Shown one piece after another: positions 22,401-40,943 of a stretch of 64,000 nt of DNA. Within the stretch, counting starts at the first letter, position 1; the number at the start of each line of letters is the position of its first letter. The notes beneath the pieces were generated by a model that saw nothing but the letters and a program-made list of their open reading frames with translations, did not search any database and was not told the DNA's origin. The DNA is from Aquimarina atlantica (GTDB taxonomy: Bacteria > Bacteroidota > Bacteroidia > Flavobacteriales > Flavobacteriaceae): assembly GCF_000626715.1 (NCBI RefSeq), contig NZ_AQRA01000007.1:310001-374000 (forward strand), given 5' to 3'. Made by a program: the position numbers and the translations under genes.

Positions 22401-22566
22401 GAGTAAGAAAATCATTCCCCCAAATACAGGCTTGCTTACTTTGAGAAGAAAAGGTATTATTTTCATGATTTGCAGTTTGATGTAAAGGTTGTGCACTCAT
22501 TTTGAATACAAATACCATCGTTGATAACATGCTTATCCAAAGCATGTGTTTTTTGTAATTTTTCAT
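19492..22566 (-). CDS. Secreted two-headed BSP-family metalloprotease with F5/8C and PKD domains, T9SS sorted
   Basis: 1024 residues. Signal peptide 1-25; basic-secretory-protein (BSP, clan MA) peptidase module 1 about 48-298; F5/8-type-C-like domain about 302-438; PKD domain about 445-528; second F5/8C domain about 535-672; BSP module 2 about 681-931; C-terminal T9SS type A sorting tail (SYPNPIKDKLHF and a YFIIVKQNGK strand pair) about 950-1024. Each BSP module carries HEVTHGYNY (HExxH zinc site) and the EGIADGVR motif. The two modules are near-identical in DNA, the F5/8C domains more divergent. It should be secreted and cell-attached and cut extracellular protein; substrate unknown. Most BSP proteins have one module. 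Confidence 0.88.
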   Translation of the reverse strand: MKNYKKHMLWISMLSTMVFVFKMSAQPLHQTANHENNTFSSQSKQACIWGNDFLTPRVEFRDFDGSTIGSQIFKQVIPDAESYMKQRCLDVAKILYRNSADAPKFRLLKFNLKNEDFVAHKFGEGDQMTIEVSTQHLAKIYRDSGNNSQVIKDEIDGILFHEVTHGYNYSPTTGGTYDGSSPFWAYTEGIADGVRIYAGFHQTRTPNVNDSRKWLGGYTTTGFFLQYVTQKYDKNFIYKFNKAAKDLGNSWSFDNAFKDILGKGVETVWNEYKNYINTGNTLDYDGDYPWSLDCGGNNGNLIDITNDGGTISSQYNDSPSNEGISKLIDNAVNSKYLTFNASAWVQYKASTSYVLSSYTLSSANDAPERDPKNWTLQGSTNGNSWQNIDQRSNQDFPNRHQKRSFTVNTSTAYKYYRLSMTNNSGTILQIAEVELFGKEKTAQQLPIADFRANTTNIKEGESISYTNSSTDATSYNWTFDGGSPSSSTQPNPVVKYDRAGTYSVTLKAINGDGSDTKIKSDFITVSSKNDGGEIIDITNDGGTISDQHNDSPSYEDISKLIDNNPNSKFLTFNASAWVQYKATKNYTLSSYTITSGNDAPERDPKSWTLQGSTNGSSWETIDQRSNQDFQNRNQKRTFQVSTSSSYNYYRLSMRNNSGTILQVSELELFGKGNTTGGGSCSWGSDFLTPRVEFRDFDGSTIGSQIFNQVIPNAENYMKQRCLDVAKILYRNSADAPKFRLLKFNLKNEDFVAHKFGEGDQMTIEVSTQHLAKIYRDSGNNSQVIKDEIDGILFHEVTHGYNYSPTTGGTYDGSSPFWAYTEGIADGVRIYAGFHQTRTPDVNDSRKWLGGYTTTGFFLQYVTQKYDKNFIYKFNKAAKDLGNSWSFDNAFKNILGKGVETVWNEYKNYINTGNTLDYDGDYPWSLDCGGNNRNNVQTVENQNPEDAFNLKSYPNPIKDKLHFVKSQNLKSTSLLFEIYDTQGSLVFTEHTSGSELNLDHLESKMYFIIVKQNGKTIYRNRFIKR
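19774..20523 (-). repeat. BSP module repeat, copy in C-terminal half
   Basis: About 750 bases that match 21673-22422 without any gap at an offset of 1899 bases, with about 20 substitutions by eye (roughly 97 percent identity). Bases 20050-20367 are identical to their counterpart over 318 bases, including the HExxH codons. Confidence 0.93.
21673..22422 (-). repeat. BSP module repeat, copy in N-terminal half
   Basis: Partner of 19774-20523 within the same gene; encodes BSP module 1. Differences cluster near the two ends of the module, the middle being identical, as expected after duplication with later gene conversion. Confidence 0.93.
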
Positions 22567-23493: not shown

Positions 23494-26400
23494 ATGAACA
23501 CAAAAATTAATCTTTCGGTTATACTCATGCTGATTTTTTGTACAATAAGTTTTGCACAAGTAAAAACAGTGTCGGGTAAAATAACAGAGGATTCTGGGAT
23601 TCCTCTTCCTGGAGTGAATATTCTAATCAAAGAAACGTCATCTGGTACACAATCTGATTTTGATGGTAATTACTCTTTGCAGGTAGAAGCAGGTCAAACA
23701 CTTGTTTTTTCTTATCTGGGTTTTAAAACAGAAGAAAAACTAGTAGGTGATGAGACTACATTCGATATGATAATGTATCAAGATGCTACTTCACTAGATG
23801 AAATTGTAGTAACAGCTCTTGGGATAAGTAGATCTAAAAAATCTTTGGGGTATGCTACTCAACAAATAGAATCAGAAGATATTAGCAAAGCTAAAGGCGT
23901 AAACTTTGTGAATTCATTATCTGGTAAACTTGCTGGAGTTACTGTTTCTAGAAATAATAACTTCGGGGGTTCAACAAATGTAATTATCAGGGGATATTCT
24001 TCTTTAACCGGTAACAACCAACCCTTATTTGTAATTGATGGCACTCCGATTAGTAACCGAATTAACAATTCAAGAAACTCAACAGCAGGTAGAGGAGGGT
24101 ATGATTATGGTAATGCTGCGTCAGATATTAATCCAGATGACATAGAAACTATAAACGTTCTAAAAGGAGCTGCTGCTTCTGCTTTATACGGATCTAGAGC
24201 AGGAAATGGAGTAATTATAATCACGACAAAAAAAGGAGCTAAAAATAAAGGGTTAGGGATAACAATTAACTCAAATACTACATTTAGCAAATTTGACCCT
24301 AAAACATTTGCGAGATACCAAAAAGAATACGGAGGAGGTTATGGAGCTTCTTTTGTACAGGAAGATGTAGATGGAGATGGTATTTTAGATAATGTTGTAG
24401 ATACAGGGGGTGATGCTTCTTGGGGACCGAGATTTGACCCTAATCTTTCAGTATATCAGTGGGGAGCTTTTTTTCCAGAAAACCCTAATTATCGTACTCC
24501 TACACCATGGGTAGCCGCAAAAAATGACCCTACTTCTATTTTTCAGACAGGTTTATTGCAATCAACAGGGGTTAGTGTTGATGGTGCTTCAGACAAAGGA
24601 GATTTTAGGTTAGGATTTACCAATGTAGAACAAACAGGTATTTTACCCAATAGTTTAATTAAAAGGCAAACGGTAGATTTTGGCGGAAGTTATAAGTTAA
24701 CCGATAAAGTCATAGCGAGAGCAAAGGTTACATATACCAAAAATAGTGGGCGAGGTAGATTCGCAACAGGGTATGACGAAAATAGTGTTTTGCCCGGATT
24801 GAGACAATGGTATCAAACAAATGTTGACTTAAGAGAGCAGAGAGATGCATATTTTAGATTAAGAAGAAATGCTACCTGGAATATAAGATCATCAGCACGT
24901 ACAGGTGACGATCCTTATGCACCAAGACCACAATATTGGGATAATCCATATTGGACATTATATGAAAATTATCAAACCGATGGCAGAGACCGTGTCTTTG
25001 GAAACGTAGCGCTAACGTATAAAGTAAATGATTGGTTTGATGTTTTGGCCAGAGTGACTATGGATAGGTTTGATGAAATAAGAGAAGAAAGAGTAAACGT
25101 TTCTAGTTTCAACCCATCTAATTACAATAGATTTAATGGGTTTTTTAGAGAAATGAACTATGATATGATAGGAAACTTTAATTTTGATATTACTGAAAAG
25201 CTTAATTTTAAAGGACTTCTGGGGATGAACCTTACCAGAACAAATAGAAGTTCTATTTTTGCACAAACCAATGGAGGACTTAATACTTTTGGATTTTACT
25301 CTTTATCCAATTCGGTAAATCCAATAGCCCCACCTATAGAAAGAAAGTCTAGTATGGGGGTTAATGGGTATTATGCCAGTGCATCATTTGGTTATGATGA
25401 TATATTATTCTTAGATGCAACCTATAGAATAGACAGATCATCAACATTACCAGATGGTAAAAGACAATTTAATTACCCATCTATTTCTACTAGTTTTCTT
25501 TTTTCTAACCTCTTTACAAGCGATTGGTTAAATTTCGGAAAACTGAGATTGAACTACGCCGAAGTGGGTAATAGTGCCGGAGTACTTCTTGTAGACGATG
25601 TATATACTTTTGTTAATGGTTTTGCAGGACAATCTCTGTTCTCATTACCAAATAATAAAAACAACCCTACACTTAAGCATGAAACCGTTATAAGTTATGA
25701 GGTAGGATTAGAAATGAAACTTTTTAAGAATAGATTTGGGTTTGATATAACTGCATATCAAACCAATAGTAAAGATCAAATTCTTCCATTAGATATATCT
25801 ACTTCTACAGGATTTAATTCAAAAATTGTAAATGCTGGTGAAATTGAAAATAAAGGATATGAAGTTAGTCTTTTTGGAACCCCAATCAAAACAGAAAACT
25901 TCGAATGGAATATCAATGTAAACTGGAGTACTTATAAAAGTGAAGTAGTTTCGCTATTAGATGGAATTGATAATTTAAGTTTATCAGGAACACTACAAGA
26001 AGATGTTTCTATTAATGCCACTGTAGGAGAACCTTACGGAACGATTAGAGGATCTAGTTTTAAATATCTTAATGGCCAGAGAGTTGTTGATGAAAACGGA
26101 TATTACGTAACTAACGAAGAAAATGGAGTGATTGGTAACATAATTCCAGATTGGAATGGAGGAATCAACAATACATTCAGGTATAAAAATGCTTCGCTTA
26201 GTTTTTTAATCGACATGCAAAAAGGAGGAGATATCTACTCTCTTGATCATACCTATGGATATGCTACAGGAATATTTCCTGAAACCGCAGGACTTAATGA
26301 TTTGGGTAATCCTATAAGAGATGCTGTTGCCGATGGAGGAGGGATAATAGCCCCAGGTGTTAGAGAAGATGGGACCCCTAATACAGTAAGAACTCCGGTA

Positions 26401-26703
26401 AATAGCTTTGATAGTCCATTTATTTATTACAGATCAACAGATGAACAGAATGTTTATGATGCTTCTTTTATAAAATTAAGAGAAGTGATATTCTCATATT
26501 CATTACCAACAAAATTATTAGATAACCTACCTGTTAATGATGTAGTGGTTTCTCTAATTGGTAGGAACTTATGGATTATTGACAAAAACATCCCATATTC
26601 TGATCCAGAAGCAGGATTAAGTGCAGGTAACTTACAAGGGTTTCAGTCTTCTGCATATCCCACATCTAAAGAATATGGTTTTAACCTAAAAGTAAAATTC
26701 TAA
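23494..26703 (+). CDS. SusC/RagA family TonB-dependent transporter (second pair)
   Basis: 1069 residues. Signal peptide about 1-21 (TISFAQ), carboxypeptidase-regulatory-like domain about 25-100 (VSGKITEDSGIPLPGVNI), plug about 108-245 (NVIIRGYSSLTGNNQPLFVI, GNGVIIITTKKG) and barrel ending GFNLKVKF. It is followed after 4 bases by a SusD-like gene, making a transporter/lid pair for the outer membrane. No carbohydrate enzyme is near; peptidase and hydroxyproline genes follow, so imported substrate may be peptides, as in RagAB of Porphyromonas. That substrate is inference from gene order. Confidence 0.95.
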   Translation: MNTKINLSVILMLIFCTISFAQVKTVSGKITEDSGIPLPGVNILIKETSSGTQSDFDGNYSLQVEAGQTLVFSYLGFKTEEKLVGDETTFDMIMYQDATSLDEIVVTALGISRSKKSLGYATQQIESEDISKAKGVNFVNSLSGKLAGVTVSRNNNFGGSTNVIIRGYSSLTGNNQPLFVIDGTPISNRINNSRNSTAGRGGYDYGNAASDINPDDIETINVLKGAAASALYGSRAGNGVIIITTKKGAKNKGLGITINSNTTFSKFDPKTFARYQKEYGGGYGASFVQEDVDGDGILDNVVDTGGDASWGPRFDPNLSVYQWGAFFPENPNYRTPTPWVAAKNDPTSIFQTGLLQSTGVSVDGASDKGDFRLGFTNVEQTGILPNSLIKRQTVDFGGSYKLTDKVIARAKVTYTKNSGRGRFATGYDENSVLPGLRQWYQTNVDLREQRDAYFRLRRNATWNIRSSARTGDDPYAPRPQYWDNPYWTLYENYQTDGRDRVFGNVALTYKVNDWFDVLARVTMDRFDEIREERVNVSSFNPSNYNRFNGFFREMNYDMIGNFNFDITEKLNFKGLLGMNLTRTNRSSIFAQTNGGLNTFGFYSLSNSVNPIAPPIERKSSMGVNGYYASASFGYDDILFLDATYRIDRSSTLPDGKRQFNYPSISTSFLFSNLFTSDWLNFGKLRLNYAEVGNSAGVLLVDDVYTFVNGFAGQSLFSLPNNKNNPTLKHETVISYEVGLEMKLFKNRFGFDITAYQTNSKDQILPLDISTSTGFNSKIVNAGEIENKGYEVSLFGTPIKTENFEWNINVNWSTYKSEVVSLLDGIDNLSLSGTLQEDVSINATVGEPYGTIRGSSFKYLNGQRVVDENGYYVTNEENGVIGNIIPDWNGGINNTFRYKNASLSFLIDMQKGGDIYSLDHTYGYATGIFPETAGLNDLGNPIRDAVADGGGIIAPGVREDGTPNTVRTPVNSFDSPFIYYRSTDEQNVYDASFIKLREVIFSYSLPTKLLDNLPVNDVVVSLIGRNLWIIDKNIPYSDPEAGLSAGNLQGFQSSAYPTSKEYGFNLKVKF

Positions 26704-26707
26704 AAAA

Positions 26708-28144
26708 ATGAAAAATAGTAAAATTTTAACCATACTATTCTGCTTGTTTATGATCTTTTCCTGTAAGGTAGATGATCTTAATGTGAGCGATAAACAGATT
26801 TCTGACGTTCCTTCGTCAACATTATTTACTAATGGACAACGAAATTTGGTTGACCAAATGGTGACTCAAAGTGTTTTTGATAATCATTTGAAATTTTATG
26901 CGCAATATTGGGCAGGTACAGGTTTTATAGGTCCAGAAACTAATTTTCAAGATCTTAAGAGTTTTCCGCAAAATTATTGGAATACACTTTATAGAGATGT
27001 TCTAAGTGATCTTAACGAAGCGGCTCGATTAATTCCCGAAGAAGAAATATTCGGTCTTACTGAAATAGATAAGCAAAATAGATTAGCGATTATCGAAGTT
27101 TTGAAAGTATATACTTTTCATGTCCTGGTAGATCTTTTTGGAGATGTTCCGTACTCAGAAGCCCTGTCTTTGGACAAAGATATCTTAAACCCGGTATATG
27201 ATAATGATCAGAATATTTATACCAATATTATAAACCAGCTAAATACTGCTATTGGTAACCTTAATACTTCTGGGCAATCATTTGGTGATTCAGATTTGAT
27301 GTATCAGGGAGATGTTTCTAAATGGGCAAAATTTGCAAATTCCTTAAAGTTACGATTAGCACTTAGGATTGCTGATGTAGATTCTAATCAGGCAGGGACA
27401 CTAGCAACAGAGGCAGTTAACTCTGGGGTATTTACATCTAATAATGATAATGCTTCCTTAAGCTACGAATCGACAACACCTAATACAAATCCAATATGGG
27501 AAACTCTTGTAAATAGTGGTAGAGAAGATTATGTTGTAGCAGAAGCTGTAGTAGATATTATGCAACCTATAAATGATCCAAGACAATCTGTTTATTTTGA
27601 TAATAATCTAACTCCTTATGTAGGTGGAGTATTAGGTAACCTAAATATATTTGATGATTTTACACATATTGGGACTGCTTTTCATCAACCAGATTTAGAA
27701 GGACTGTTGCTTGATTATGCAGAAGTAGAATTTTTATTGGCAGAAGCTGCAGAACGTTCTTTGGTTGGATCTCCGGCAGACGCAGAAAATCATTATAATA
27801 ATGCTATTACAGCATCTATTACGTACTGGGGAGGCTCATCTGGTGATGCAACAACCTATCTGGCACAAGCAAGTGTAGCTTACACTACTGCAACCGGAAA
27901 CTATAGACAAAAGATAGGAACTCAACAGTGGATCGCTTTTTATAACAGAGGTTTCGATGGATGGTCAAGCTATAGAAGATTAGGTTTTCCTAATTTAAGT
28001 AATAGTTCAGAAGGTAATCCTGTACCGAGAAGAATAAAATATCCTATTAGAGAATATAACACTAATGGTACAAATGTAACCAACGCTGCTTCAAATATTG
28101 GAGGAGATGAATTGACAACTAAAGTATTTTGGGATGTAAATTAA
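26708..28144 (+). CDS. SusD/RagB-like surface lipoprotein (SusD-like_2 type)
   Basis: 478 residues, lipobox IFSC (Cys19) after a hydrophobic signal. The shape (long helical TPR-like body with LKVYTFHVLVDLFGDVPYSE and WAKFANSLKLRLALRIADVD) fits the SusD-like_2 group rather than classic SusD_RagB with its ERRLELASEG tail. It begins 4 bases after the susC stop and so is translated from the same message. A good terminator follows. It probably binds the substrate, likely peptide, at the cell surface for its SusC partner. Confidence 0.9.
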   Translation: MKNSKILTILFCLFMIFSCKVDDLNVSDKQISDVPSSTLFTNGQRNLVDQMVTQSVFDNHLKFYAQYWAGTGFIGPETNFQDLKSFPQNYWNTLYRDVLSDLNEAARLIPEEEIFGLTEIDKQNRLAIIEVLKVYTFHVLVDLFGDVPYSEALSLDKDILNPVYDNDQNIYTNIINQLNTAIGNLNTSGQSFGDSDLMYQGDVSKWAKFANSLKLRLALRIADVDSNQAGTLATEAVNSGVFTSNNDNASLSYESTTPNTNPIWETLVNSGREDYVVAEAVVDIMQPINDPRQSVYFDNNLTPYVGGVLGNLNIFDDFTHIGTAFHQPDLEGLLLDYAEVEFLLAEAAERSLVGSPADAENHYNNAITASITYWGGSSGDATTYLAQASVAYTTATGNYRQKIGTQQWIAFYNRGFDGWSSYRRLGFPNLSNSSEGNPVPRRIKYPIREYNTNGTNVTNAASNIGGDELTTKVFWDVN

Positions 28145-28180
28145 GAGATATAGAACTCATTTTTAATTTGTGATAGTCCT

Positions 28181-28230
28181 TTCCCTCTTAATAGACAAGT
28201 TAGCCTGTCAATTGAGAGGGAATTTTATTT
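28181..28230 (+). terminator. Terminator after second susCD pair
   Basis: Arms of 17 bases (28181-28197, starting TTCCCTCTTAAT, and 28206-28222) pair with two mismatches, followed by TTTTATTT. It isolates susCD from the catabolic genes downstream. Confidence 0.85.
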
Positions 28231-28372
28231 ATAAAATCAATATTTAAAACACCATTTCCTTTTCTATTACCTGAATGAATATTAATCAAAAAAATCAATA
28301 TTTAACACTGTATAAGTTAATTTAGTATTATACATGGATAATTTCTAGGTACTTTACACCTTAAATTCATGG

Positions 28373-28380
28373 TATATTTG
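28373..28380 (+). promoter_or_regulatory. Candidate -7 box for the hydroxyproline catabolic genes
   Basis: TATATTTG, a match to TAnnTTTG, 23 bases upstream of the start codon at 28404. The -33 region is weak (ctttac), so tentative. Confidence 0.5.
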
Positions 28381-28403
28381 ACCCGAAATATTAAACCACA
28401 ATT

Positions 28404-29333
28404 ATGGCTATAAATTGGAAAGGCGTAATGCCAGCAGTAACAACTAAATTCACTAATGAGGATACTTTAGACCTTGATATGTTTGAAGTTAATATCAATG
28501 CACAACTAGAAGCCGGAGTTCATGGAATTATTCTGGGAGGAACTCTGGGAGAGGCTAGTACATTAAGTGATACAGAAAAAAGAATTTTGGTAAAAAAGAC
28601 AGTAGACATTGTTAATGGCAGAGTTCCTGTAATTATGAACATCGCAGAACAAACAACCAAAAATGCAATTGATGCAGCTGCAAAAGCAAAAGAAGATGGA
28701 GCTCAGGGATTAATGATGCTACCTCCAATGCGTTACAAAGCAGGAGATCGCGAAACAGTAGTGTATTTTAAAGAAGTAGCTAAAAGTACAGAGCTACCAA
28801 TTATGGTATATAATAATCCTGTAGATTATAAAATTGAAGTAACTCTAGATATGTTTGAAGAGTTATTAGAAATGGATAATATACAAGCAGTAAAAGAATC
28901 TACAAGAGATATATCTAATATTACAAGAATTAAAAATAGATTTGGTAATCGCCTAAAAATCCTTTCAGGTGTTGATACTTTAGCCTTAGAGAGTCTTTTG
29001 ATGGGAGCAGACGGTTGGGTTGCCGGGCTTGTAGATGCTTTTCCTGCAGAAACCGTTGCAATTTACGAATTACAAAAGGCAGGACGAATTAAAGAAGCAC
29101 TCGAGATATATAGATGGTTTTTGCCTTTGTTAGAGTTAGATATCAATGCAAAACTAGTACAAAATATTAAACTCGCAGAAGTAGCTACCGGAATCGGTAC
29201 CGAAAATGTACGTGCACCAAGATTACCACTTGTTGGCGAAGAACGTAAAAATGTCCTTAGCATTATTGAAAATGGATTAAAAACAAGGCCTACTTTACCA
29301 GAGTATAAAGAACTAAATGCTGTAGTGAGTTAG
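28404..29333 (+). CDS. DapA-family lyase, probable 1-pyrroline-4-hydroxy-2-carboxylate deaminase
   Basis: 309 residues, cytoplasmic, single TIM barrel of the dihydrodipicolinate synthase/N-acetylneuraminate lyase family. The Schiff-base Lys is K164 in AVKESTRD and the family Tyr is in MVYNNPVDYK. The family includes HypD, which removes ammonia from pyrroline-hydroxycarboxylate and yields 2-oxoglutarate semialdehyde in 4-hydroxyproline breakdown. It is followed 84 bases later by a dehydrogenase of the kind that oxidises that semialdehyde, and downstream by hydroxyproline racemase-family and pyrroline reductase genes, which support this call. Sugar-acid dehydratases of the same family are the main alternative. 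Confidence 0.72.
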   Translation: MAINWKGVMPAVTTKFTNEDTLDLDMFEVNINAQLEAGVHGIILGGTLGEASTLSDTEKRILVKKTVDIVNGRVPVIMNIAEQTTKNAIDAAAKAKEDGAQGLMMLPPMRYKAGDRETVVYFKEVAKSTELPIMVYNNPVDYKIEVTLDMFEELLEMDNIQAVKESTRDISNITRIKNRFGNRLKILSGVDTLALESLLMGADGWVAGLVDAFPAETVAIYELQKAGRIKEALEIYRWFLPLLELDINAKLVQNIKLAEVATGIGTENVRAPRLPLVGEERKNVLSIIENGLKTRPTLPEYKELNAVVS

Positions 29334-29417
29334 ATTTTTTTGCCCCAAATATCTTGTTTTTACTTTAATCAATTTTATCATTAATTCATTTTACACTAAA
29401 ACCATTAACCAATATAT

Positions 29418-31001
29418 ATGATAACCGGAAAAAATTATATAGGAAACAGATTATCGGCAACAGGATCAGTTTCTCGTAAAACATTCAACCCAAAATTAAA
29501 TATTGAGAACGAATATGAATTTTATGAGGCTACTTTAGAAGAAGTGAATGAGGCTACAGAGCTAGCACATCAGGCTTTTAAAGAATATAGAAATGTTACA
29601 GGAGCTAAAAGAGCAGAATTCTTACATGCTATTGCAGATGAGATTTTGGCTTTAGACGATGAATTGATTCAAGCATATACCTCAGAAACTGGGTTGCCAG
29701 AAGGAAGAGCAATAGGAGAAAGAGGTCGAACAGTTTTTCAATTACGTTCTTTTGCAGAACTAATCTCTAATGAAGAGTGGAGAGAAAATACAATCGATTC
29801 GGCAGATACTAACCGTACTCCTGCACCTAAACCAGATATTAGAAAAACTAATATTCCTTTGGGGCCAGTAGTGGTATTTGCAGCCAGTAATTTCCCTTTA
29901 GCATTTTCTACTGCAGGAGGAGATACTGCCAGTGCATTAGCTTCGGGATGCCCGGTAATTGTTAAGTCTCATGCCATGCATTCAGGAACAGGAGAATTGG
30001 TATCATCTGCTATCATCAAAGCAGCCGAAAAAACAGGAATGCCAAATGGCGTTTTTTCAAATATTACAGGAAGCGGAAGAGTAGTAGGAGCTGCCCTGGT
30101 AAAGCATTCAAAAGTAAAAGCCGTTGGTTTTACAGGAAGTATCTCGGGAGGAAGGGCTTTATTTAATCTGGCGGCAAACAGAGAAGAGCCAATTCCTGTT
30201 TTTGCAGAAATGGGAAGTATTAATCCTGTAATTATTACACCCGAAGCAATTGCCAAAAGAGCAGACGAAATAGCAACTACGTATGCTAATTCTATTACAG
30301 TTGGTACAGGTCAGTTCTGTACAAATCCTGGATTGATCTTAACAATAGATGGTGATAACACTAGAAGCTTTATCAAAGACCTTGCAGAAAAAAGTACTGC
30401 AATAGCTCCCCAGTGTATGTTGCATCCTAATATAAAAAGAGACTTTGTAGAAAATAGAGCTACTATATCTTCTCAATCAGGAGTAGAAGTCGTAGCCTCT
30501 TTAACCGAAGAAGTAGAACCTAATTTTGCTCCTACTCAAATTTCTGCTGTTTCTGGAGCCGATTTTTTAACCAATCCAAAAATGCACCAGGAAGTTTTTG
30601 GCCCTTTTTCATTAGTGGTTAGATGCAAAGACGAAGCAGAACTTGTTGAGATTATTAATAACCTCGAAGGGCAATTAACAGGAACTATCCTGGCAGAAAA
30701 ATCAGAATATCAAAACTTAGGGAACATCGTTGATGCACTTCAGGATAGAGTTGGACGTATTATTTTTAATGGAGTCCCAACCGGAGTAGAAGTTTGCCCA
30801 TCTATGACCCATGGAGGACCATATCCAGCATCGTCAGATTCTAGGTTTTCTGCCGTAGGAACCAATGCTATTAAGCGATGGGTAAGGCCATTTAGCTACC
30901 AGGATTGGCCAAACGAATTGCTCCCAAATGCACTTAAAAATGAAAACCCTGATGAGATCATCAGAACTGTAGATGGAACTTATTCTAATGCAAAAGTATA
31001 A
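29418..31001 (+). CDS. Aldehyde dehydrogenase, probable 2-oxoglutarate semialdehyde dehydrogenase
   Basis: 527 residues, cytoplasmic, ALDH superfamily, with long N-terminal part typical of type-III KGSA dehydrogenases. Catalytic Cys301 is in GTGQFCTNPG and Glu264 in FAEMGSINP; NFPLAFSTAGGDTASALASG is the cofactor-binding start. It would convert 2-oxoglutarate semialdehyde to 2-oxoglutarate with NADP, feeding the TCA cycle. The immediate upstream DapA-family gene makes a two-gene operon closed by a terminator. Substrate call is from family and context. Confidence 0.8.
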   Translation: MITGKNYIGNRLSATGSVSRKTFNPKLNIENEYEFYEATLEEVNEATELAHQAFKEYRNVTGAKRAEFLHAIADEILALDDELIQAYTSETGLPEGRAIGERGRTVFQLRSFAELISNEEWRENTIDSADTNRTPAPKPDIRKTNIPLGPVVVFAASNFPLAFSTAGGDTASALASGCPVIVKSHAMHSGTGELVSSAIIKAAEKTGMPNGVFSNITGSGRVVGAALVKHSKVKAVGFTGSISGGRALFNLAANREEPIPVFAEMGSINPVIITPEAIAKRADEIATTYANSITVGTGQFCTNPGLILTIDGDNTRSFIKDLAEKSTAIAPQCMLHPNIKRDFVENRATISSQSGVEVVASLTEEVEPNFAPTQISAVSGADFLTNPKMHQEVFGPFSLVVRCKDEAELVEIINNLEGQLTGTILAEKSEYQNLGNIVDALQDRVGRIIFNGVPTGVEVCPSMTHGGPYPASSDSRFSAVGTNAIKRWVRPFSYQDWPNELLPNALKNENPDEIIRTVDGTYSNAKV

Positions 31002-31069
31002 GTTTTGATTCTAGAACAATACTCTAAAAATAATCTGTTTAAATGTTGGTTGGTATTGTTAAATTTATA

Positions 31070-31108
31070 ACCAAAAGGGTGTGATTTTTGTCACTCCCTT
31101 TTGGTTTT
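31070..31108 (+). terminator. Terminator after the semialdehyde dehydrogenase
   Basis: Fifteen-base arms (31070-31084, starting ACCAAAAGGG; 31091-31105, ending TTTTGGT) with one mismatch and a 6-base loop, then TTTT. Confidence 0.85.
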
Positions 31109-31280
31109 ACCTATAAAAGAATAAGGCGTAGAAATGAATTTTGTGTATAAAAAAAACAGAAAAAAGAATGAAATGAATAAAACAACTTATAAATTGACGG
31201 CTGTACCTTTAATAACGAAACAAGAAAAGGTGCAACAGGAAAACAACTATTAATCATTTTATTCGGATAGAATTTCTAAT

Positions 31281-32573
31281 ATGCGTTACGAAAACTTACC
31301 AAATACCGTTTTTAAACAGAACCGAAATAATTTTGCTTCCAAAACCCTCGAGAATACGATTACTATTCTAACATCTAACGATATTATGCATACCAATGCA
31401 GATGATGTTATGGGGTTTGCCCAAAACAATGATTTATTTTATTTGTCAGGAATAGATCAGGAAGAAACAATACTAGTGTTGTATCCAGATGCTTATAAAC
31501 CCGAAAACAGGGAGATTTTGTTTATAAAAGAAACGAATGAGCATATCAAAATCTGGGACGGTGAAAAATTAACCAAAGAAGAAGCTGGTCAGATTTCAGG
31601 AGTCCAACGAATAGAATGGATACATGATTTTGAAAAAATACTTCAATTAATGGCCTTCGAAGCAGATGGTTTTTATTTAGGACATAATGAACATATAAAG
31701 CGAATTACACATAACAAACAAACACAACAGGATCGAATGATTAACTGGTGTAAAGAAAAATATCCTTTGCACCAGTATCATCGAGCCGCCAAAATTACAA
31801 GAGCTTTACGTCCTGTTAAATCAAGCGAAGAAATAGCACAAATACAAAAAGCAGCAGATATTAGTATCGAAGGTTTTTATAGGGTACTCAAAGCAGTAAA
31901 ACCTAACTGTAAGGAATATGAATTAGAAGCAGAATTAACGTATGCACTCCTTAAAAATGGAGGGACAAGACATGCTTTTAAACCTATTGTTGCTTCAGGA
32001 AAAAATGCTTGTGCATTACATTATAATACTAATGATAATACCTGTCGGGATGGTGATATGATACTTCTGGACTTTGGGGTTTGCTATGGTAATTATAATA
32101 GTGATACCACACGCTGTATTCCTGTAAATGGTACGTTTTCTGATCGACAAAAAGAAGTATATGCTGCGGTTCTTTATTGTTTAAAAGAAGGAAGCAAGCT
32201 ACTTAAGCCCGGAGTTATCCCGGCGGATTATGAAAAACAAATGGCTGGTTTAGTCGAAGACCAACTGATCAAAATTGGAGTTCTCGACGCTTCTGAAGTT
32301 GCCGCTCAAAACCCGGATAAACCTTTGTATAAAAAGTATTTTATGCATGGTACGGCACATCATCTTGGGTTAGATGTTCACGATGTCGGTTTGTACTCCA
32401 GGCCTTTAGAAACGGGAATGGTACTTACTTGTGAGCCTGGTATTTATATCCCCGAAGAAGGAATAGGTTGTCGCCTAGAGAATGATTATCTCATTACAGA
32501 AACAGGAAATATAAATCTCACACAAGCGATGCCTATAGAGATTGAAGAAATTGAAAAGTTGATGACTGCATAG
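31281..32573 (+). CDS. Aminopeptidase P family protein (M24, Xaa-Pro)
   Basis: 430 residues, no signal peptide. An aminopeptidase P N-terminal domain (about 1-160; MRYENLPNTVFKQNRNNFAS) precedes the pita-bread M24 domain. Metal ligands are visible: Asp in LLDFGVCYGNYNSDTTR, His in HGTAHHLGLDVHD, Glu in CEPGIYI and Glu in CRLENDYLI. It should remove N-terminal residues before proline in the cytoplasm. The next gene, 27 bases further, is a second M24 peptidase, so a cytoplasmic pair for Pro/Hyp-containing peptides is likely. Its start at 31281 fits the family N-terminus. Confidence 0.9.
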   Translation: MRYENLPNTVFKQNRNNFASKTLENTITILTSNDIMHTNADDVMGFAQNNDLFYLSGIDQEETILVLYPDAYKPENREILFIKETNEHIKIWDGEKLTKEEAGQISGVQRIEWIHDFEKILQLMAFEADGFYLGHNEHIKRITHNKQTQQDRMINWCKEKYPLHQYHRAAKITRALRPVKSSEEIAQIQKAADISIEGFYRVLKAVKPNCKEYELEAELTYALLKNGGTRHAFKPIVASGKNACALHYNTNDNTCRDGDMILLDFGVCYGNYNSDTTRCIPVNGTFSDRQKEVYAAVLYCLKEGSKLLKPGVIPADYEKQMAGLVEDQLIKIGVLDASEVAAQNPDKPLYKKYFMHGTAHHLGLDVHDVGLYSRPLETGMVLTCEPGIYIPEEGIGCRLENDYLITETGNINLTQAMPIEIEEIEKLMTA

Positions 32574-32600
32574 CAGTATATCTCATAAAAATATATAGTT

Positions 32601-33821
32601 ATGAATGCATTAGGAATAGGTGGTTCTACCATCGAAAAAGAATTAAATGCAATACAGCCAAAAGCTCATCTTGCAAAACCCATTCAAAAAGAAGAATTTC
32701 AAGCCAGAATAGATAAAGCTTGCGATCTTATGAAAGAGCAAGAGATTCCTGCAGTATATCTGCATGCAGGAACAAATTTATTTTACTTTACAGGAATGCG
32801 ATGGAACCCAAGTGAGCGAATGGTAGGAGTATTACTATTTCCAGATGGAGAAGTGCATTATATAGGTCCTCGGTTTGAAGAAGGAACTATTTTAGATTTC
32901 ATGGTAATAAAAGGCCCTGTTCATTGCTGGGAAGAACATGAAAGCCCATATGCCTTATTTGTGAATATTCTCGACAAGAAAAATATCAATGGTAAGGATG
33001 TAGCTATGGATGAAGCAACTCCCTTTTTTATTATTGATGGAATTCTAAAAGAACAATCCAATTACAATCTAATTAATGCCAAACCGATTACTGCCGGGTG
33101 TCGAATGATAAAATCTGAAGCAGAAATTGCCATCATGCAAACTGCAATGGATATTACGATGGAAGTACAAAAGGCTGCAGCAAGAATATTGAAACCGGGA
33201 ATCAGTGCCAAAGAAGTTACCAGTTTTATTAATGAAGCTCATAAACGATACGGTATTCCTTCGGGGTCATATTTTTGTATTGTGTTATTCGGAGTAGATT
33301 CCTCTTTTCCGCATGGGGTAAAAGCACCAAAAAACTTAGAAGAAAACGAAATAGTATTAATTGATACAGGATGTGTCCTGCATGATTATATTTCAGATAT
33401 TACCAGAACATATGTATATGGTGAAATTAGTGAGTTACAACGTGAAATATGGAATCTCGAGAAAGAAACTCAACTTTCTGCATTTGAAGCTGCTCAATTA
33501 GGAAAACCATGTTCTGTAATAGATAATGCCTCAAGAAAAACATTAGAGGCCAAAGGCCTGGGACCTGATTATAAATTACCAGGGCTACCACACCGTACCG
33601 GCCACGGCATAGGGTTAGATATCCACGAATGGCCGTATATAGCAAGACATGAAGATGCGATCCTTGCATCAGGAATGTGTTTTAGTAATGAACCTATGAT
33701 ATGTGTACCTGATGAGTTTGGAATTAGATTAGAAGATCATATCTATATGACCGAAGAAGGGCCAAAATGGTTTACACAACCTGCACATTCTATTGATGAT
33801 CCTTTTGGATTATCTCTATAA
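32601..33821 (+). CDS. M24 family Xaa-Pro peptidase (prolidase/aminopeptidase P type)
   Basis: 406 residues, cytoplasmic. A creatinase-like N-terminal domain (about 25-165) precedes an M24 catalytic domain with ligands in LIDTGCVLHDYISDITRTY (two Asp), PHRTGHGIGLDIHEW (His), SNEPMICVP (Glu) and IRLEDHIYM (Glu). Such enzymes act as Xaa-Pro dipeptidase or aminopeptidase; which one cannot be said. It follows the other M24 gene by 27 bases in the same orientation and is closed by a long palindromic terminator. Confidence 0.88.
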   Translation: MNALGIGGSTIEKELNAIQPKAHLAKPIQKEEFQARIDKACDLMKEQEIPAVYLHAGTNLFYFTGMRWNPSERMVGVLLFPDGEVHYIGPRFEEGTILDFMVIKGPVHCWEEHESPYALFVNILDKKNINGKDVAMDEATPFFIIDGILKEQSNYNLINAKPITAGCRMIKSEAEIAIMQTAMDITMEVQKAAARILKPGISAKEVTSFINEAHKRYGIPSGSYFCIVLFGVDSSFPHGVKAPKNLEENEIVLIDTGCVLHDYISDITRTYVYGEISELQREIWNLEKETQLSAFEAAQLGKPCSVIDNASRKTLEAKGLGPDYKLPGLPHRTGHGIGLDIHEWPYIARHEDAILASGMCFSNEPMICVPDEFGIRLEDHIYMTEEGPKWFTQPAHSIDDPFGLSL

Positions 33822-33866
33822 TAGAGATAGAACTCTAAGTAAACAATCTGAATACTAAGTAATTGA

Positions 33867-33910
33867 AAGATTATTCTAAAGCATTATTAATAATGCTTTA
33901 GAATAATCTT
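33867..33910. terminator. Perfect 44-base palindromic terminator between convergent genes
   Basis: A perfect inverted repeat (22-base arms, outer bases AAGATTATTC and GAATAATCTT, inner GCATTATTAATAATGC) with no loop, U-rich on either strand, in the 94-base gap between the M24 gene and the racemase-family gene. Stops transcription from both sides. Confidence 0.9.
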
Positions 33911-33915
33911 GTTTG

Positions 33916-34980
33916 TTATCTAAAAATAAACCCATTTTTCATTGGATCATCAGGATCGATGATAAAAGTGTTCATTCCTGTAATATGCGCCGTTCCTTCA
34001 ACTTGCGGTATTACTGCTTTATAAGGGCCAAATTCTTCTTCAGAAATAACAGAACCTTTAAATACAGAATCTGTTATACTTTCTATAGTCATTGTATCCC
34101 CATATTGTATTTCATTTCTCATTTTATGTATTGCCATTCTACCAGAAACTCCAGATCCGGTGGGGCACCTGTCTACTTCTCCTTCAGCAAAAATACATAC
34201 GTTTCTACTATCAATATTTTCTTTAGAAGAATTTCCAATAAAAATGGTACCGTATAAAAAACTAAGATCTTCTTCATAAGGATGTAGAATATTAGAATCC
34301 TGCTCTATTACAGCATGTTTTATATCCATTCCCTTGGTAATTAATTTTCTATATGAATTTGAAGTTAAATCAAAATCAAAATTATTTTTAGCCATATCTA
34401 CATATGCATAAAAAGCACCTCCGTAGGCCAAATCATAGATAATGTCTCCTATACCCTCTACCTTTACCTTTCTATCCAATCCAACTACAAAACTAGGAAC
34501 ACAATGAAAACGAACACCGGTTACTTTTCCGTTTTTTACATGTGCATAAGAAATGATTCGACCACAGGGAGCATCAATTTTTATGATATTATCTCCTTCC
34601 TGATAATCGATCCAATTCATTTCGACAGCCAATGTAGAAATTGCAATAATAGCATGGCCGCACATGGTGCTGTATCCTTCGTTGTGTATAAACAAAATCC
34701 CAAAATCCCCATCATTATCATTAGGAGGGAGTAAGATACATCCATACATATCGGCATGGCCACGAGGTTCAAACATAAGAGAGGTACGTAAGTGGTCATA
34801 ATGCTCCTTACAATATCTCCTGTATTCTAATATCGAATTTCCTTTCAGTTCGGGAAACCCATCGACAATTACCCGAAGCGGTTCTCCTCCTGTATGCATA
34901 TCGATGGTTTTGATTTGTAACCAATCTTTTTTGGGGTTGAAATTGGTATTTTTTAGAATGTTTTGATATGTTTTACTCAT
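33916..34980 (-). CDS. trans-3-hydroxy-L-proline dehydratase (proline racemase superfamily)
   Basis: 354 residues, cytoplasmic. Superfamily members differ at two catalytic positions: racemases and 4-hydroxyproline epimerases have a Cys (or Ser) and a Cys; 3-hydroxyproline dehydratases keep the first Cys but have Thr at the second. Here the first is Cys107 in STMCGHA and the second motif is VDRCPTGSGVSGR, where Thr274 takes the place of Cys in the racemase DRSPCGTG. That makes it a dehydratase that forms 1-pyrroline-2-carboxylate from trans-3-hydroxy-L-proline, a collagen residue. Its start overlaps the end of the reductase gene by 8 bases, and that enzyme consumes its product. Confidence 0.85.
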   Translation of the reverse strand: MSKTYQNILKNTNFNPKKDWLQIKTIDMHTGGEPLRVIVDGFPELKGNSILEYRRYCKEHYDHLRTSLMFEPRGHADMYGCILLPPNDNDGDFGILFIHNEGYSTMCGHAIIAISTLAVEMNWIDYQEGDNIIKIDAPCGRIISYAHVKNGKVTGVRFHCVPSFVVGLDRKVKVEGIGDIIYDLAYGGAFYAYVDMAKNNFDFDLTSNSYRKLITKGMDIKHAVIEQDSNILHPYEEDLSFLYGTIFIGNSSKENIDSRNVCIFAEGEVDRCPTGSGVSGRMAIHKMRNEIQYGDTMTIESITDSVFKGSVISEEEFGPYKAVIPQVEGTAHITGMNTFIIDPDDPMKNGFIFR

Positions 34981-35932
34981 GCGTATATTGATTATAATAA
35001 TAAGTAGCTGCTGCTAAATCTTCGAGAGCATGCCCTACAGATTTAAAAATAGTTATTTCATGATCACTGGTTCTTCCTTGCTTAGTTTCAGAGCAGAGCT
35101 CAAATAAATCAGCTTTGATATCTTCTTCTTTTAGAACACCTTCTTTGAGAGGAATAACAATGTCTCCACTTTCTTTAAGTCCCCCCTGATAAGTGTCTAC
35201 AAAAACAGTGGCTTTTTTTATGCTTTCATTATCAGCTTCACGCATATCCTTTTTGTAGGCTCCAACTAAATCTATATGCTGTCCGGCTTTTAAATAATTA
35301 CCCAACACCAAAGGAGTTTTGGATAATGTTGCACAGGATATAATATCTACTTCAGAAATTTTTTCTTCGATTGTAGGTATAGCATGGATATGAAAACTTT
35401 CTCCTTCTAATTCAGCTGAGATTTTTTTCGCTTTTTCATAATTCCTTCCCCAGATATAGACAGTTTTAATAGGTCTTACACTGGCATGCGCTTTAATTAG
35501 ATTAGTAGAGAGTGCACCTGTACCGATCATTAATAAGGAAGAAGCATCAGGTTTAGATAAATACGATGATGCCAGGGCAGAGGCCGAAGCAGTTCGTTTT
35601 ACGGTCAAACTTTTTGCCTCCATTATTGCTTTGATAGTACCTTTAATGGCGTCCATATATAAATATGTACCTTGAATCGAAGGTAAATCAAACTGTCCAT
35701 TTTTGGGACTTACTGTTACGATTTTTACCCCTGCTTCTTTACCAGGATTCCAGGCAGGCATCAACAATAGCGTAGAATCTTCCTGAACCACAGGGTTTGG
35801 AAAATCATGATGATGACGCATAGGCACCAGTATAGAATCTGATGCAAATTTGTTTTTTAATTCAGCAATTAGCTCATTAAAATTAGTGTTACTTTCAATA
35901 AAATCGGTATTGATCTGAACAATTGTATCCAT
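34973..35932 (-). CDS. Ornithine cyclodeaminase-family protein, probable 1-pyrroline-2-carboxylate reductase
   Basis: 319 residues, cytoplasmic, OCD/mu-crystallin family. N-terminal MRHHHDFPNPVVQEDSTLLLMPAW is split by a central Rossmann domain (LLMIGTGALSTNLIKAH, about 135-260). In this family many bacterial members reduce 1-pyrroline-2-carboxylate to L-proline with NADPH. It overlaps the next gene, a trans-3-hydroxyproline dehydratase, by 8 bases, which is strong evidence for this pathway assignment. Other functions such as ornithine cyclodeaminase are less likely. The transcript order is reductase first, dehydratase second. Confidence 0.85.
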   Translation of the reverse strand: MDTIVQINTDFIESNTNFNELIAELKNKFASDSILVPMRHHHDFPNPVVQEDSTLLLMPAWNPGKEAGVKIVTVSPKNGQFDLPSIQGTYLYMDAIKGTIKAIMEAKSLTVKRTASASALASSYLSKPDASSLLMIGTGALSTNLIKAHASVRPIKTVYIWGRNYEKAKKISAELEGESFHIHAIPTIEEKISEVDIISCATLSKTPLVLGNYLKAGQHIDLVGAYKKDMREADNESIKKATVFVDTYQGGLKESGDIVIPLKEGVLKEEDIKADLFELCSETKQGRTSDHEITIFKSVGHALEDLAAATYYYNQYTHE

Positions 35933-36022
35933 AGGTTATAAATGTAAACAAATCCCAATTCGTAATGGCATACTAACTTAAATCTTATTAAAATGATACC
36001 ATTCTTGGGTAATATAGTATCA

Positions 36023-36052
36023 TTGAGTCAATAGCCTTTTAGGTTATCTTTA
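36023..36052 (+). promoter_or_regulatory. Candidate promoter for S37 peptidase gene
   Basis: TTG (36023-36025) and TATCTTTA (36045-36052), with a 19-base spacer, close to the Bacteroidota pattern but with one mismatch at the last base. It sits 23 bases before the start codon. Confidence 0.4.
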
Positions 36053-36075
36053 AAATATTAAAAACTATTTATTTT

Positions 36076-37362
36076 ATGAATCGAATTAAGTATATAGTAG
36101 TACTACTTCTTGTTAACCTTTCTTTTTTTTCTTGTAAAAGTTCGTTACCACCTACTGCTGAAATATCCTTTGAGCAAAAACTAAGAAATTTGTTCCCTAC
36201 AGCAGATATAAGCGCAATACAGGTAAATGATCATTTTACAGAATCGTACCGATTGATATTAAAACAACCATTGGACCACAACAATCCAGATGCAGGAACT
36301 TTTGATCATTATGTATATCTCTCTCATTCTGATTATTCGCAGCCCACAGTATTAGTTACCGAAGGGTATTCTGCAAAACATAGAACATATGAGTTAAGTA
36401 CTCTGTTAAAGGCAAATCAGGTTATGGTAGAATATCGATTTTATGGAAAATCAAGACCAAATCCGATTCCGTGGAAGTACCTGACCAATGATCAGGCTAT
36501 TCAGGATTATCATCTTCTGGTTACTAAACTTAAAAAAATATATACCAACAAATGGATATCTACAGGAATAAGTAAAGGAGGGGAGACTGTATTGATTTAT
36601 AAATCAAAGTACCCAAAAGATATGGATGCTGCAGTTTCTTATGTTGCTCCTTTGATTAATACCCGAGAAGACCCAAGAACGCAAGAACATATCGATACTG
36701 TTGGAACCGATGAGTGCAGAACTAAGATTACTAATTTTCAACGGTTATTGTTAACTCGAAGAGAGGCTCTTTTAAAGGAAATTGATCAACATTCGAGAAA
36801 AAAGAAAATGAGTTTTACAAAAGTATCCCCAGAAGAGGCTCTAGAATACGCAGTACTAGAATTCCCTTTTTCTTTTTGGCAATGGGGAGGCAAGTGTGAT
36901 GAAATTCCTAATGGGAATGCCGATCCTACTACCTTATTTACTTACCTTAATAAAGTAGTAGGCATTGGCTTTTATAATGATAAAACATATCACAACCTAT
37001 TACCTTCTTATTATCAACATATGGTAGAGCTTGGGTATTACGGATTTGATAGTACTCCTGTGCAGGATTTAATTAAAGTGGTAAAACAGCCTACTAATAT
37101 GAGATTCGCACCCAAAAATGTTACTATGGTGTATGATCAGGATTATATTAAAAAGGTTAGGGATTATGTAGAGAACAAAGGAGATCATATCATTTATATT
37201 TATGGAGAATATGATCCCTGGGGAGCATGTTCACCTACCCCAAAACCTCATGTAAATGCCTTAAAAATGGTATTACCCAAAGGAAGTCATAGTACCAGGA
37301 TTAAAAATTTCTCAAAAGAAGATCAGAGAAAAATCTATGATAAATTACAAGCATGGTTGTAA
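36076..37362 (+). CDS. S37 family peptidase (prolyl tripeptidyl/aminopeptidase type)
   Basis: 428 residues, lipoprotein signal with lipobox FFSC (Cys20). Peptidase family S37 fold (alpha/beta hydrolase). The nucleophile is Ser166 in STGISKGGET; Asp in YIYGEYDPWGAC and His in PKGSHSTRI complete the triad. Family members remove N-terminal peptides, often prolyl tripeptides. As an exported enzyme in a locus rich in Xaa-Pro peptidases it probably shortens Pro-rich peptides in the periplasm or at the surface. It is divergent from the 3-hydroxyproline gene pair (143-base gap). Confidence 0.88.
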   Translation: MNRIKYIVVLLLVNLSFFSCKSSLPPTAEISFEQKLRNLFPTADISAIQVNDHFTESYRLILKQPLDHNNPDAGTFDHYVYLSHSDYSQPTVLVTEGYSAKHRTYELSTLLKANQVMVEYRFYGKSRPNPIPWKYLTNDQAIQDYHLLVTKLKKIYTNKWISTGISKGGETVLIYKSKYPKDMDAAVSYVAPLINTREDPRTQEHIDTVGTDECRTKITNFQRLLLTRREALLKEIDQHSRKKKMSFTKVSPEEALEYAVLEFPFSFWQWGGKCDEIPNGNADPTTLFTYLNKVVGIGFYNDKTYHNLLPSYYQHMVELGYYGFDSTPVQDLIKVVKQPTNMRFAPKNVTMVYDQDYIKKVRDYVENKGDHIIYIYGEYDPWGACSPTPKPHVNALKMVLPKGSHSTRIKNFSKEDQRKIYDKLQAWL

Positions 37363-37390
37363 AAGATGATTACGCTTATTTACAATAAAT

Positions 37391-37422
37391 TTTAAGCCTG
37401 TAGCATCTGCTACAGGCTTAAA
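37391..37422. terminator. Bidirectional terminator
   Basis: Perfect 15-base arms (TTTAAGCCTGTAGCA and TGCTACAGGCTTAAA) with a 2-base loop in the spacer between the S37 gene and the convergent NTF2-like gene. Confidence 0.9.
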
Positions 37423-37441
37423 AATAATAACAGATGATGGA

Positions 37442-38406: not shown

Positions 38407-39030
38407 CTAGGTATCTTTTTTTAGAATTCTAATTTCTTGTTTTCCTAATGCAACGATTCCTTCTGTTTCTAATTTTTTTAGAAGTCTTGAAATTACTTCT
38501 CTTGTAGTGGCTAACTCCCTGGCTAATTGTTGATGTGACCTTTGTAAAACAGCATTATTAGATTCTATCATTAGATATTCGAGTAAACGTTCTCTAAGAG
38601 GTTTAAAAGCAAGTTTTGAGTAGTTATTAATTAGTACATTGTAGCTATCTCTAAATGTATTTATAGTAAATCGATTCCAGGATTTATATGTAAAACACCA
38701 ATCTTTTACGAATCTTACAGGGATATTTAATACTATTGATTCTTCTTCGACAATAGCATTAACGGTACTTTTGCAATCTTCAAAACAGGCAGATAAAGAA
38801 AGGGTACAGGTTTCCATATCTCCTAAATAATAAATAAGGATTTCACGTTCTTCATTTTCCTGATATACTCTAACTTTTCCGCTGATTACAATTTTCAGAA
38901 CTTTAATATATTTATTTTCTTTTATTAGAAACTCACCTTTTTGATGTTTAGAAATAGAAGTTTTTTCCCGAAGCTCTTTTTTGAGTTCTTCTTCTGATAT
39001 GTGTAGTTTTTGAAATACTTGATCTAACAT
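38407..39030 (-). CDS. Crp/Fnr family transcriptional regulator 1
   Basis: 207 residues. A cyclic-nucleotide-binding-like domain (about 15-125; KHQKGEFLIKENKYIKVLKI and SGKVRVYQENEEREILIYYL) is followed by a helix-turn-helix (about 145-200; HQQLARELATTREVISRLLK). No Fnr-type iron-sulfur Cys set; instead ETCTLSLSACFEDCKS carries three Cys, a pattern shared with the paralogue at 40176-40805. It would bind DNA as a dimer. It lies just upstream of the NTF2-like secreted protein gene, a likely target. The effector is unknown. Confidence 0.88.
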   Translation of the reverse strand: MLDQVFQKLHISEEELKKELREKTSISKHQKGEFLIKENKYIKVLKIVISGKVRVYQENEEREILIYYLGDMETCTLSLSACFEDCKSTVNAIVEEESIVLNIPVRFVKDWCFTYKSWNRFTINTFRDSYNVLINNYSKLAFKPLRERLLEYLMIESNNAVLQRSHQQLARELATTREVISRLLKKLETEGIVALGKQEIRILKKDT

Positions 39031-39188
39031 AATCTAGGGGTGTTTTCGTTTCACAGAACTACTTTTTCAGAGTTTATGGTATTGATAATTCTATTTTAGA
39101 CTATACTTTAAAGTTAAGTATGAATGATGATAAAAATAATCATTTTAAATTCTTATCAAATTATATGACTTATGCTGTAATCTACAAG

Positions 39189-39215
39189 AAGCGCAAACCG
39201 TTATGATTTGCGCTT
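39189..39215 (-). terminator. Hairpin after alpha/beta hydrolase gene
   Basis: Arms AAGCGCAAA and TTTGCGCTT with a 9-base loop, 21 bases after the minus-strand hydrolase stop. The following U-run is short. Confidence 0.6.
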
Positions 39216-39235
39216 TCTACTCTTGTTAAAAGCTT

Positions 39236-40069: not shown

Positions 40070-40175
40070 AAATTTTTAGCGTATTACTTATGGCACAAAT
40101 GTATATGCGGAAACAGCCTTAAACTTGTACCTTTTGACACAAGTGGCTAATATTTTTTTATTTTTTCTGAAGAGA

Positions 40176-40805: not shown

Positions 40806-40943
40806 TTTTATGAATGAAAAAATAATTAGTACTATCTTAATTACTACAAATATATGTAAGTGATTATACTTACAGCGCACCTATTTTGAAACACTCATTA
40901 TGCATTGTTAGTATCGGTATAATAAGTTTTAGTATGTTCGCTT

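Follow-up and report, generated by a model that had tools for sequence, protein, structure and literature searches.

A SusC/SusD-linked hydroxyproline locus of Aquimarina atlantica as a probable arm of a split collagen-utilisation system

What does a SusC/SusD transporter pair import when its neighbours are proline peptidases and hydroxyproline enzymes? The question is raised by a locus of Aquimarina atlantica (Flavobacteriaceae; genome G000, 5.69 Mb) at positions 23494-37362 of the window, i.e. the whole 64,000-nucleotide stretch that was analysed (contig NZ_AQRA01000007.1, here C7, positions 310,001 to 374,000). From the letters and open reading frames (ORFs) alone, an initial annotation had assigned to it the import and full breakdown of proline (Pro) and hydroxyproline (Hyp) peptides, such as those of collagen. 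ORF reading located all nine genes, intact, where they had been placed, and the family calls hold with Pfam/NCBIfam. Our results support the collagen/hydroxyproline reading and suggest that it extends to a split collagen-utilisation system: the locus is probably the peptide-import and 3-hydroxyproline arm of a system that is kept in several places of the genome.

The 3-hydroxyproline arm consists of a putative trans-3-hydroxyproline dehydratase (T3HypD) and a Delta1-pyrroline-2-carboxylate reductase (P2CR). According to excerpts of PMC4364671, a Cys/Thr active-site pair defines trans-3-hydroxyproline dehydratases within the racemase-fold family, and trans-3-Hyp is a residue of procollagen. This pair is present in 86/86 T3HypD proteins (the window, 80 named loci and five from loci of the fusion gene described below, some genomes being counted twice), and Cys/Cys in all 28 of the 4-hydroxyproline epimerases (4HypE) taken from the same 113 loci and from contig C17. 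Both T3HypD residues are invariant across 16 homologues, and the closest solved protein, 6r76, titled proline racemase, also shows Cys/Thr in the alignment. P2CR passes its curated cut-off and adjoins T3HypD in each of the 19 other genera examined. The 3-hydroxyproline pair proposed at the outset is thereby supported at the level of enzyme type. The ORF at 33916-34980 was also considered as the "missing" epimerase and rejected, since its pair is Cys/Thr and not Cys/Cys.

For uptake, the genes display the architecture of a SusC/RagA barrel with a SusD lid (TIGR04056 over its cut-off, PF12771). In a ranking against the Protein Data Bank (PDB), the window SusC is nearest to BT_2264 (388 bits), any other solved structure scoring at most 157 bits, and a Flavobacterium SusC from a T3HypD locus behaves similarly (373 bits to BT_2264 versus 141 to the next). 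Two controls from the same genome are reversed: the SusC of an island on contig C2 prefers 8aa4 (589 bits; BT_2264, 129), and the SusC at 15321-18476 of the neighbouring locus prefers 5t3r (617 bits; BT_2264, 99). The ligands of BT_2263/64 and RagAB are oligopeptides according to an excerpt of PMC7782687. RagA, another peptide SusC, reaches no more than 143 bits, so that the likeness is to BT_2264 and not to peptide SusCs in general. The assignment of the pair to a peptide type, as first proposed, gains from this grouping. An AlphaFold model of the SusD built from five sequences was too poor (mean pLDDT 49) and was discarded.

The trans-4-hydroxyproline arm is shared between two contigs. A search of the full genome for the epimerase and oxidase, both missing from the initial annotation of the window, placed them on contig C17: 4HypE is over its NCBIfam cut-off (584 bits versus 376), and a D-amino-acid-dehydrogenase-like FAD enzyme (DAO) is the oxidase candidate. 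They neighbour a DUF885 protein, a divergent AraC-type gene and second copies of two window genes, the DapA-like enzyme (87% identical) and an aldehyde dehydrogenase, putatively acting on 2-oxoglutarate semialdehyde (KGSADH; 65% identical). Genome-wide, 4HypE is over its cut-off for the first trans-4-Hyp step, and DAO, the DapA-like enzyme and KGSADH are candidates for the oxidase, deaminase and dehydrogenase from family and context. The claim of full breakdown stands at most for the genome and not for the window locus alone, the epimerase and oxidase being on C17. The place given to the DapA-like enzyme in the hydroxyproline route agrees with its high identity to a copy adjoining 4HypE, which weighs against a role on sugar acids. 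Beside the C17 AraC-type gene stands a PhyH-family gene (L003 17303-18535), whose best NCBIfam match, at 124.5 bits against a cut-off of 226, is a chlorinating enzyme.

In A. sediminis (L131), P2CR, T3HypD, the two M24 peptidases (M24b, Creatinase_N type; M24a, AMP_N type), DAO, 4HypE, DUF885, KGSADH and DapA follow each other in one run, and SusCD and S37 were not found in that 21-kb stretch. Its KGSADH is nearer to the window copy (85% identity) than to that of C17 (68%); in a tree of 27 rows, the window type is sister to it (100/99) and the C17 copy lies elsewhere. Identity to the C17 counterparts is 90% for its 4HypE, 85% for its DUF885 protein and only 58% for its DAO, while its DapA is equally near to both copies (88%). 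Given this merged cluster and these identities, the window resembles one half of a split cluster, and may descend from a once-joined one.

The arrangement is conserved among relatives. The nine-gene order recurs with 92-99% identity in three further genomes of the genus (L093, L094, L095), which, together with the constant P2CR-T3HypD adjacency, argues that it is not due to chance. Among the best 80 of 579 T3HypD relatives, the closest loci by T3HypD are those of Aquimarina megaterium XH134 (97%), a Bacteroidia metagenome-assembled genome (MAG; 95%), and Aquimarina sp. Aq78 and A. macrocephali (94% each). Within these 80 loci (several of them incomplete), with a threshold of 40% identity and 60% of the length, we counted P2CR in 66, S37 in 25, M24a in 22, DAO in 20, KGSADH in 19, 4HypE in 18, M24b in 17, DapA in 15, the fusion in 12, a C2-type glucosidase in 11, SusC in seven and SusD in three. 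M24a adjoins DAO/4HypE genes in relatives. Different subsets are brought together in different lineages: S37, P2CR, T3HypD, the fusion, M24b, M24a, DAO and 4HypE in Tenacibaculum dicentrarchi (L144) and T. finnmarkense (L147); S37, P2CR, T3HypD, M24b, SusD, SusC, a DPP4-type peptidase and M24a in Flavobacterium muglaense (L165); DapA, KGSADH, 4HypE, DAO, P2CR and T3HypD in Roseivirga (L186, L191, L192). Five other Flavobacterium loci each encode a protein of ~1300 residues, which in L166, where it was tested, is an M43 peptidase; four of these loci (L166, L167, L169, L172) have both SusC and SusD, the latter with 37-39% identity, and L170 shows SusD only.

The island on contig C2 contains, in order, genes for an FG-GAP/UnbV_ASPIC protein, a SusD-like protein (by eye), SusC, a GntR-type regulator, a mutarotase-like protein, a YgjK-like glucosidase, the fusion, a GH2 beta-galactosidase, a sodium/solute symporter, galactokinase, a small SnoaL-like ORF (by eye) and GalT. 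NCBIfam cut-offs are reached by GH2, the symporter, galactokinase and GalT, and missed by the mutarotase, the regulator and the glucosidase (357 bits with the YgjK model against a cut-off of 625), whose nearest solved relative is YgjK itself (250 bits). The fusion (~1010 residues) joins APH kinase, M23-like and class III pyridoxal-phosphate (PLP) domains, as assigned by Pfam on a 67% identical homologue, and belongs to NF004799 (1145 bits, cut-off 1128), a family named "hypothetical protein" (PRK06148). In the PDB ranking, its PLP domain is nearest to human ethanolamine-phosphate phospho-lyase (456 bits), followed by a bacterial phospholyase (307) and by racemases and transaminases (178 or less); of 45 fusions searched with strict motif patterns, 34 matched for the kinase motif and 39 for the PLP lysine. 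Collagen carries Glc-alpha-1,2-Gal-beta-hydroxylysine, and Glc-alpha-1,2-Gal is reported to be the product of a YgjK glycosynthase. The C2 gene set fits the predicted needs for using this glycan.

In a family sample of 149 genomes (one per genus, A. atlantica included), T3HypD is found in 20, 4HypE in 82 and the fusion in 34. The combination of T3HypD and the fusion is found in 15 genomes (Fisher p 9.6e-8), that of T3HypD and 4HypE in 17 (p 0.003), and that of the fusion and 4HypE in 29 (p 3.2e-5). These p-values are optimistic, since the test takes the genomes as independent and not all of them are complete. The paired genes are 25 kb or less apart in 7/15, 7/17 and 15/29 cases, respectively; in A. 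atlantica, each of the three is on a separate contig. All 33 fusion neighbourhoods other than its own were read (one of only 3.4 kb). T3HypD, P2CR, 4HypE or DAO is present in 15 of them, and at least one member of the glucosidase/galactose set (glucosidase, GH2, mutarotase, galactokinase, GalT, symporter, GntR) in 14; five have genes from both groups and nine from neither. Conversely, the fetched stretches of the 19 T3HypD loci of other genera include P2CR in all, the fusion in four (L025, L028, L031, L038) and the glucosidase in six (L025, L028, L029, L031, L033, L036). In relatives (L129, L210, L211 and others), small DUF4440 proteins are repeatedly encoded next to the fusion or T3HypD.

From gene content, active-site residue types, gene order and linkage in relatives, we infer substrates, cell compartments, flow and regulation as in the following scheme. 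Two features of the genome speak for collagen as the source, a secreted M9 collagenase and the C2 island. Collagen would be cleaved outside the cell by this M9 enzyme (contig C4, 1694 residues, with a type IX secretion (T9SS) tail) and by a secreted BSP-type peptidase encoded beside the locus, and SusC/SusD would take in the Pro/Hyp-rich peptides. S37 enzymes release X-Y-Pro tripeptides; here S37 and a DPP4-type peptidase would trim the imported peptides, which a transporter encoded elsewhere, perhaps PTR2, would carry to the cytoplasm, where the two M24 peptidases may liberate Pro and Hyp. Dehydration and reduction by T3HypD/P2CR would convert trans-3-Hyp to proline. The C17 enzymes would epimerise and oxidise trans-4-Hyp, and deamination by the DapA-like enzyme and oxidation by KGSADH, both encoded in the window and on C17, would turn their product into 2-oxoglutarate. 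The C2 island would be the matching arm for Glc-Gal-hydroxylysine. With less confidence than for the locus itself, but still on balance, we favour the view that Flavobacteriaceae have a modular system for collagen modifications, with SusCD for peptides, arms for trans-3-Hyp and trans-4-Hyp, and a YgjK-like alpha-glucosidase, beta-galactosidase, Leloir genes and kinase/phospholyase fusion for Glc-Gal-hydroxylysine, of which the window would be one arm.

Several observations weigh against this scheme. The SusD is nearest to 5j5u (157 bits) and reaches only 76 bits with BT_2263. None of 15 fetched loci of ~50% identical SusCDs, some of them incomplete, holds hydroxyproline genes; these loci represent the higher-scoring part of the 85/397 family genomes that have a SusD of this kind, with one added from the genus, and on this ground we rejected the idea that the SusCD is hydroxyproline-specific by family. 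The pair is indeed a movable part of the gene set: the MAG locus L114 is without SusCD, and L096 has SusCD, DapA and the two M24 genes but not KGSADH, T3HypD, P2CR or S37. An inner-membrane peptide transporter was not found within the locus; PTR2 matches are elsewhere in the genome (C7:222599 and contig C16). T3HypD is below its curated cut-off, though best of six models, the C17 DAO is below its own (282 bits versus 383), and the window DapA-like enzyme and KGSADH reach none, so that the functions given to T3HypD, DapA-like and KGSADH rest on active-site residues and gene context. T3HypD is found in just 8/52 genomes of the genus. The M9 collagenase, absent from 14 control genomes, occurs in only 2/149 of the family, which led us to reject it as a general partner, and in A. 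atlantica it lies outside the locus cluster, unlike in clusters of the Colwellia kind.

Some of these points would also suit a general scavenger of Pro/Hyp-rich peptides (from plant or algal hydroxyproline-rich glycoproteins, cell debris or peptide antibiotics) that is not specialised on collagen: 4HypE is widespread (82/149), M9 is rare and on another contig, and 15/15 related SusCD loci are without hydroxyproline genes. We consider this unlikely in view of the T3HypD/P2CR pair, whose substrate is a procollagen residue, though hydroxyprolines occur in some peptide antibiotics as well, and in view of the association of T3HypD with the fusion (15 genomes, 7 of them within 25 kb), glycosylated hydroxylysine being collagen chemistry. 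A narrower alternative assigns sugar-acid substrates to the DapA-like enzyme and the aldehyde dehydrogenase and attributes their place beside peptide genes to chance. Both families do serve sugar-acid pathways, neither protein passes an NCBIfam cut-off, and L096 retains SusCD, DapA and both M24 genes without KGSADH; yet the identities to the copies beside 4HypE, together with the gene order of A. sediminis and of the three Roseivirga loci, make it very improbable, and we rejected it.

The alternative with the best standing concerns the C2 island only, where the fusion might act on ethanolamine or another amino alcohol instead of hydroxylysine, leaving a plain galactoside locus. The PLP domain is indeed closest to the human ethanolamine enzyme, the PDB ranking showed no solved hydroxylysine enzyme, the NCBIfam name is uninformative, 9/33 fusion neighbourhoods are without hydroxyproline or glycan genes, and the C2 SusC ranks with SusCs other than BT_2264. 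An ethanolamine role would nevertheless leave unexplained why 24/33 neighbourhoods hold a hydroxyproline-specific or glucosidase/galactose-set gene and why fusion and 4HypE are 25 kb or less apart in 15/29 genomes with both; we regard it as a minor possibility, and a collagen-related role of the island as the better account.

Much of what the scheme assembles is already known: hydroxyproline pathways, peptide SusCDs and a collagen cluster in Colwellia. The collagen-cluster concept is not new because the cluster of Colwellia MAG BB5 is in print (Borchert et al. 2021, PMC7883544). As far as excerpts of that source describe it, this marine cluster likewise comprises 4HypE, D-hydroxyproline dehydrogenase, deaminase, ketoglutarate semialdehyde dehydrogenase, an ornithine-cyclodeaminase-type reductase, proline peptidases and a TonB-dependent receptor, but it is gammaproteobacterial and includes an M9 collagenase and a major facilitator superfamily transporter, whereas Aquimarina has M9 and epimerase/oxidase on other contigs and takes up peptides, as predicted, by a SusC/SusD pair. 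Searches of its text returned no hit for SusC or hydroxylysine. BT_2263/BT_2264 of B. thetaiotaomicron and RagAB of P. gingivalis (excerpts of PMC7782687 and PMC11817032) share the SusC/SusD architecture, BT_2264 being nearest to the window SusC; the window pair, with a putative peptide ligand, differs in being joined to hydroxyproline-catabolism genes and in a SusD that does not favour BT_2263. Enzyme families and active-site types match the bacterial trans-3-Hyp (T3LHypD and Pyr2C reductase) and trans-4-Hyp pathways, as excerpted from PMC4364671, but here they are joined to peptide import, spread over two contigs and duplicated in the late steps.

The putative hydroxylysine-glycan arm is where the system is most novel. 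In kind and not by sequence comparison, the fusion may be likened, as an APH-type kinase with a class III PLP phospholyase-type enzyme, to the mammalian hydroxylysine kinase and phosphohydroxylysine phospholyase that Veiga-da-Cunha et al. reportedly described in 2012; it differs in being a single protein and in its M23-like middle domain, and hydroxylysine is its putative substrate. In open-licence literature, we recognised nothing on a Bacteroidota SusCD-hydroxyproline locus or on bacterial use of Glc-Gal-hydroxylysine, and uptake and use of collagen's modified residues by Bacteroidota are little described there. If the scheme is true, the peptide ligand of a SusCD becomes predictable, a large enzyme family now called "hypothetical protein" gains a function that can be tested, and collagen use by bacteria that are marine, bone-associated or fish-associated can be traced by marker genes.

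The locus is probably wider than its nine genes (Table 1), with the BSP and DPP4-type peptidases as partners. The BSP gene, divergent from SusC across a gap of 927 bp, stays beside SusC or DapA in L093, L095, L096 and L114. Of the four named Aquimarina-type loci, L113, L115 and L116 have a DPP4-type gene near S37, and in L114 none was seen; in L165 a 43% identical protein is encoded between SusC and M24a. Within the locus, SusC and SusD are 4 nt apart, M24a and M24b 27 nt apart, and T3HypD and P2CR overlap by 8 bp. A stem-loop scan yielded 11 terminator-like sites versus 8.3 expected from shuffles, that at 33867-33910 having the longest stem; a further one is downstream of S37 (37390-37423). 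A promoter scan was set aside (51 sites versus 66.8 in shuffles), its promoter type not being that of Bacteroidota.

Table 1. Features of the locus and its surroundings (window positions, except for the C2 island)
Feature	Position	Strand	Basis
BSP-type (PF04450) secreted peptidase, F5/8C and PKD domains, T9SS tail	19492..22566	-	Pfam
SusC-type TonB-dependent transporter, BT_2264-like	23494..26703	+	TIGR04056 583 bits, cut-off 368; PDB ranking
SusD-like lipoprotein	26708..28144	+	PF12771 406 bits; lipoprotein signal judged by eye
DapA-like enzyme (DHDPS family)	28404..29333	+	PF00701; below TIGR00674 dapA cut-off
Aldehyde dehydrogenase, probable 2-oxoglutarate semialdehyde dehydrogenase (KGSADH)	29418..31001	+	PF00171, identity to C17 copy, tree
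M24a: M24 peptidase with AMP_N domain (aminopeptidase P type)	31281..32573	+	Pfam; no signal peptide by eye
M24b: M24 peptidase with Creatinase_N domain (prolidase type)	32601..33821	+	Pfam; no signal peptide by eye
Terminator-like stem-loop, 20 pairs, between convergent M24b and T3HypD genes	33867..33910	.	Stem-loop scan
T3HypD, Pro_racemase family, Cys/Thr pair	33916..34980	-	PF05544; NF045511 364.9 bits, under cut-off 540
P2CR, OCD/mu-crystallin family	34973..35932	-	NF004793 390 bits, cut-off 322
S37 peptidase, exported	36076..37362	+	PF05576; lipoprotein signal judged by eye
DPP4-type S9 peptidase, probable partner	40944..43196	-	Pfam; near S37 in relatives
C2 island	G000:C2: L087 1826-16949, L196 912-4097, L088 203-4396		

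Around the locus, the BSP peptidase (19492-22566) has a duplicated layout (BSP, F5/8C, PKD, F5/8C, BSP, T9SS tail) with very similar BSP halves. The stretch between S37 and DPP4 (38407-40880) carries a pair of Crp-type regulator-like genes (only the first assigned by Pfam) around an alpha/beta hydrolase gene, and the S37-DPP4 gap of A. macrocephali (L116) is without these regulator and hydrolase genes. On the other side, the adjacent region 4431-18476 contains two long alpha-mannosidase-like ORFs, two ROK-kinase-like ones, a sugar transporter-like one and its own SusC/SusD (named by eye, except SusC), and looks like an ordinary mannan-type locus.

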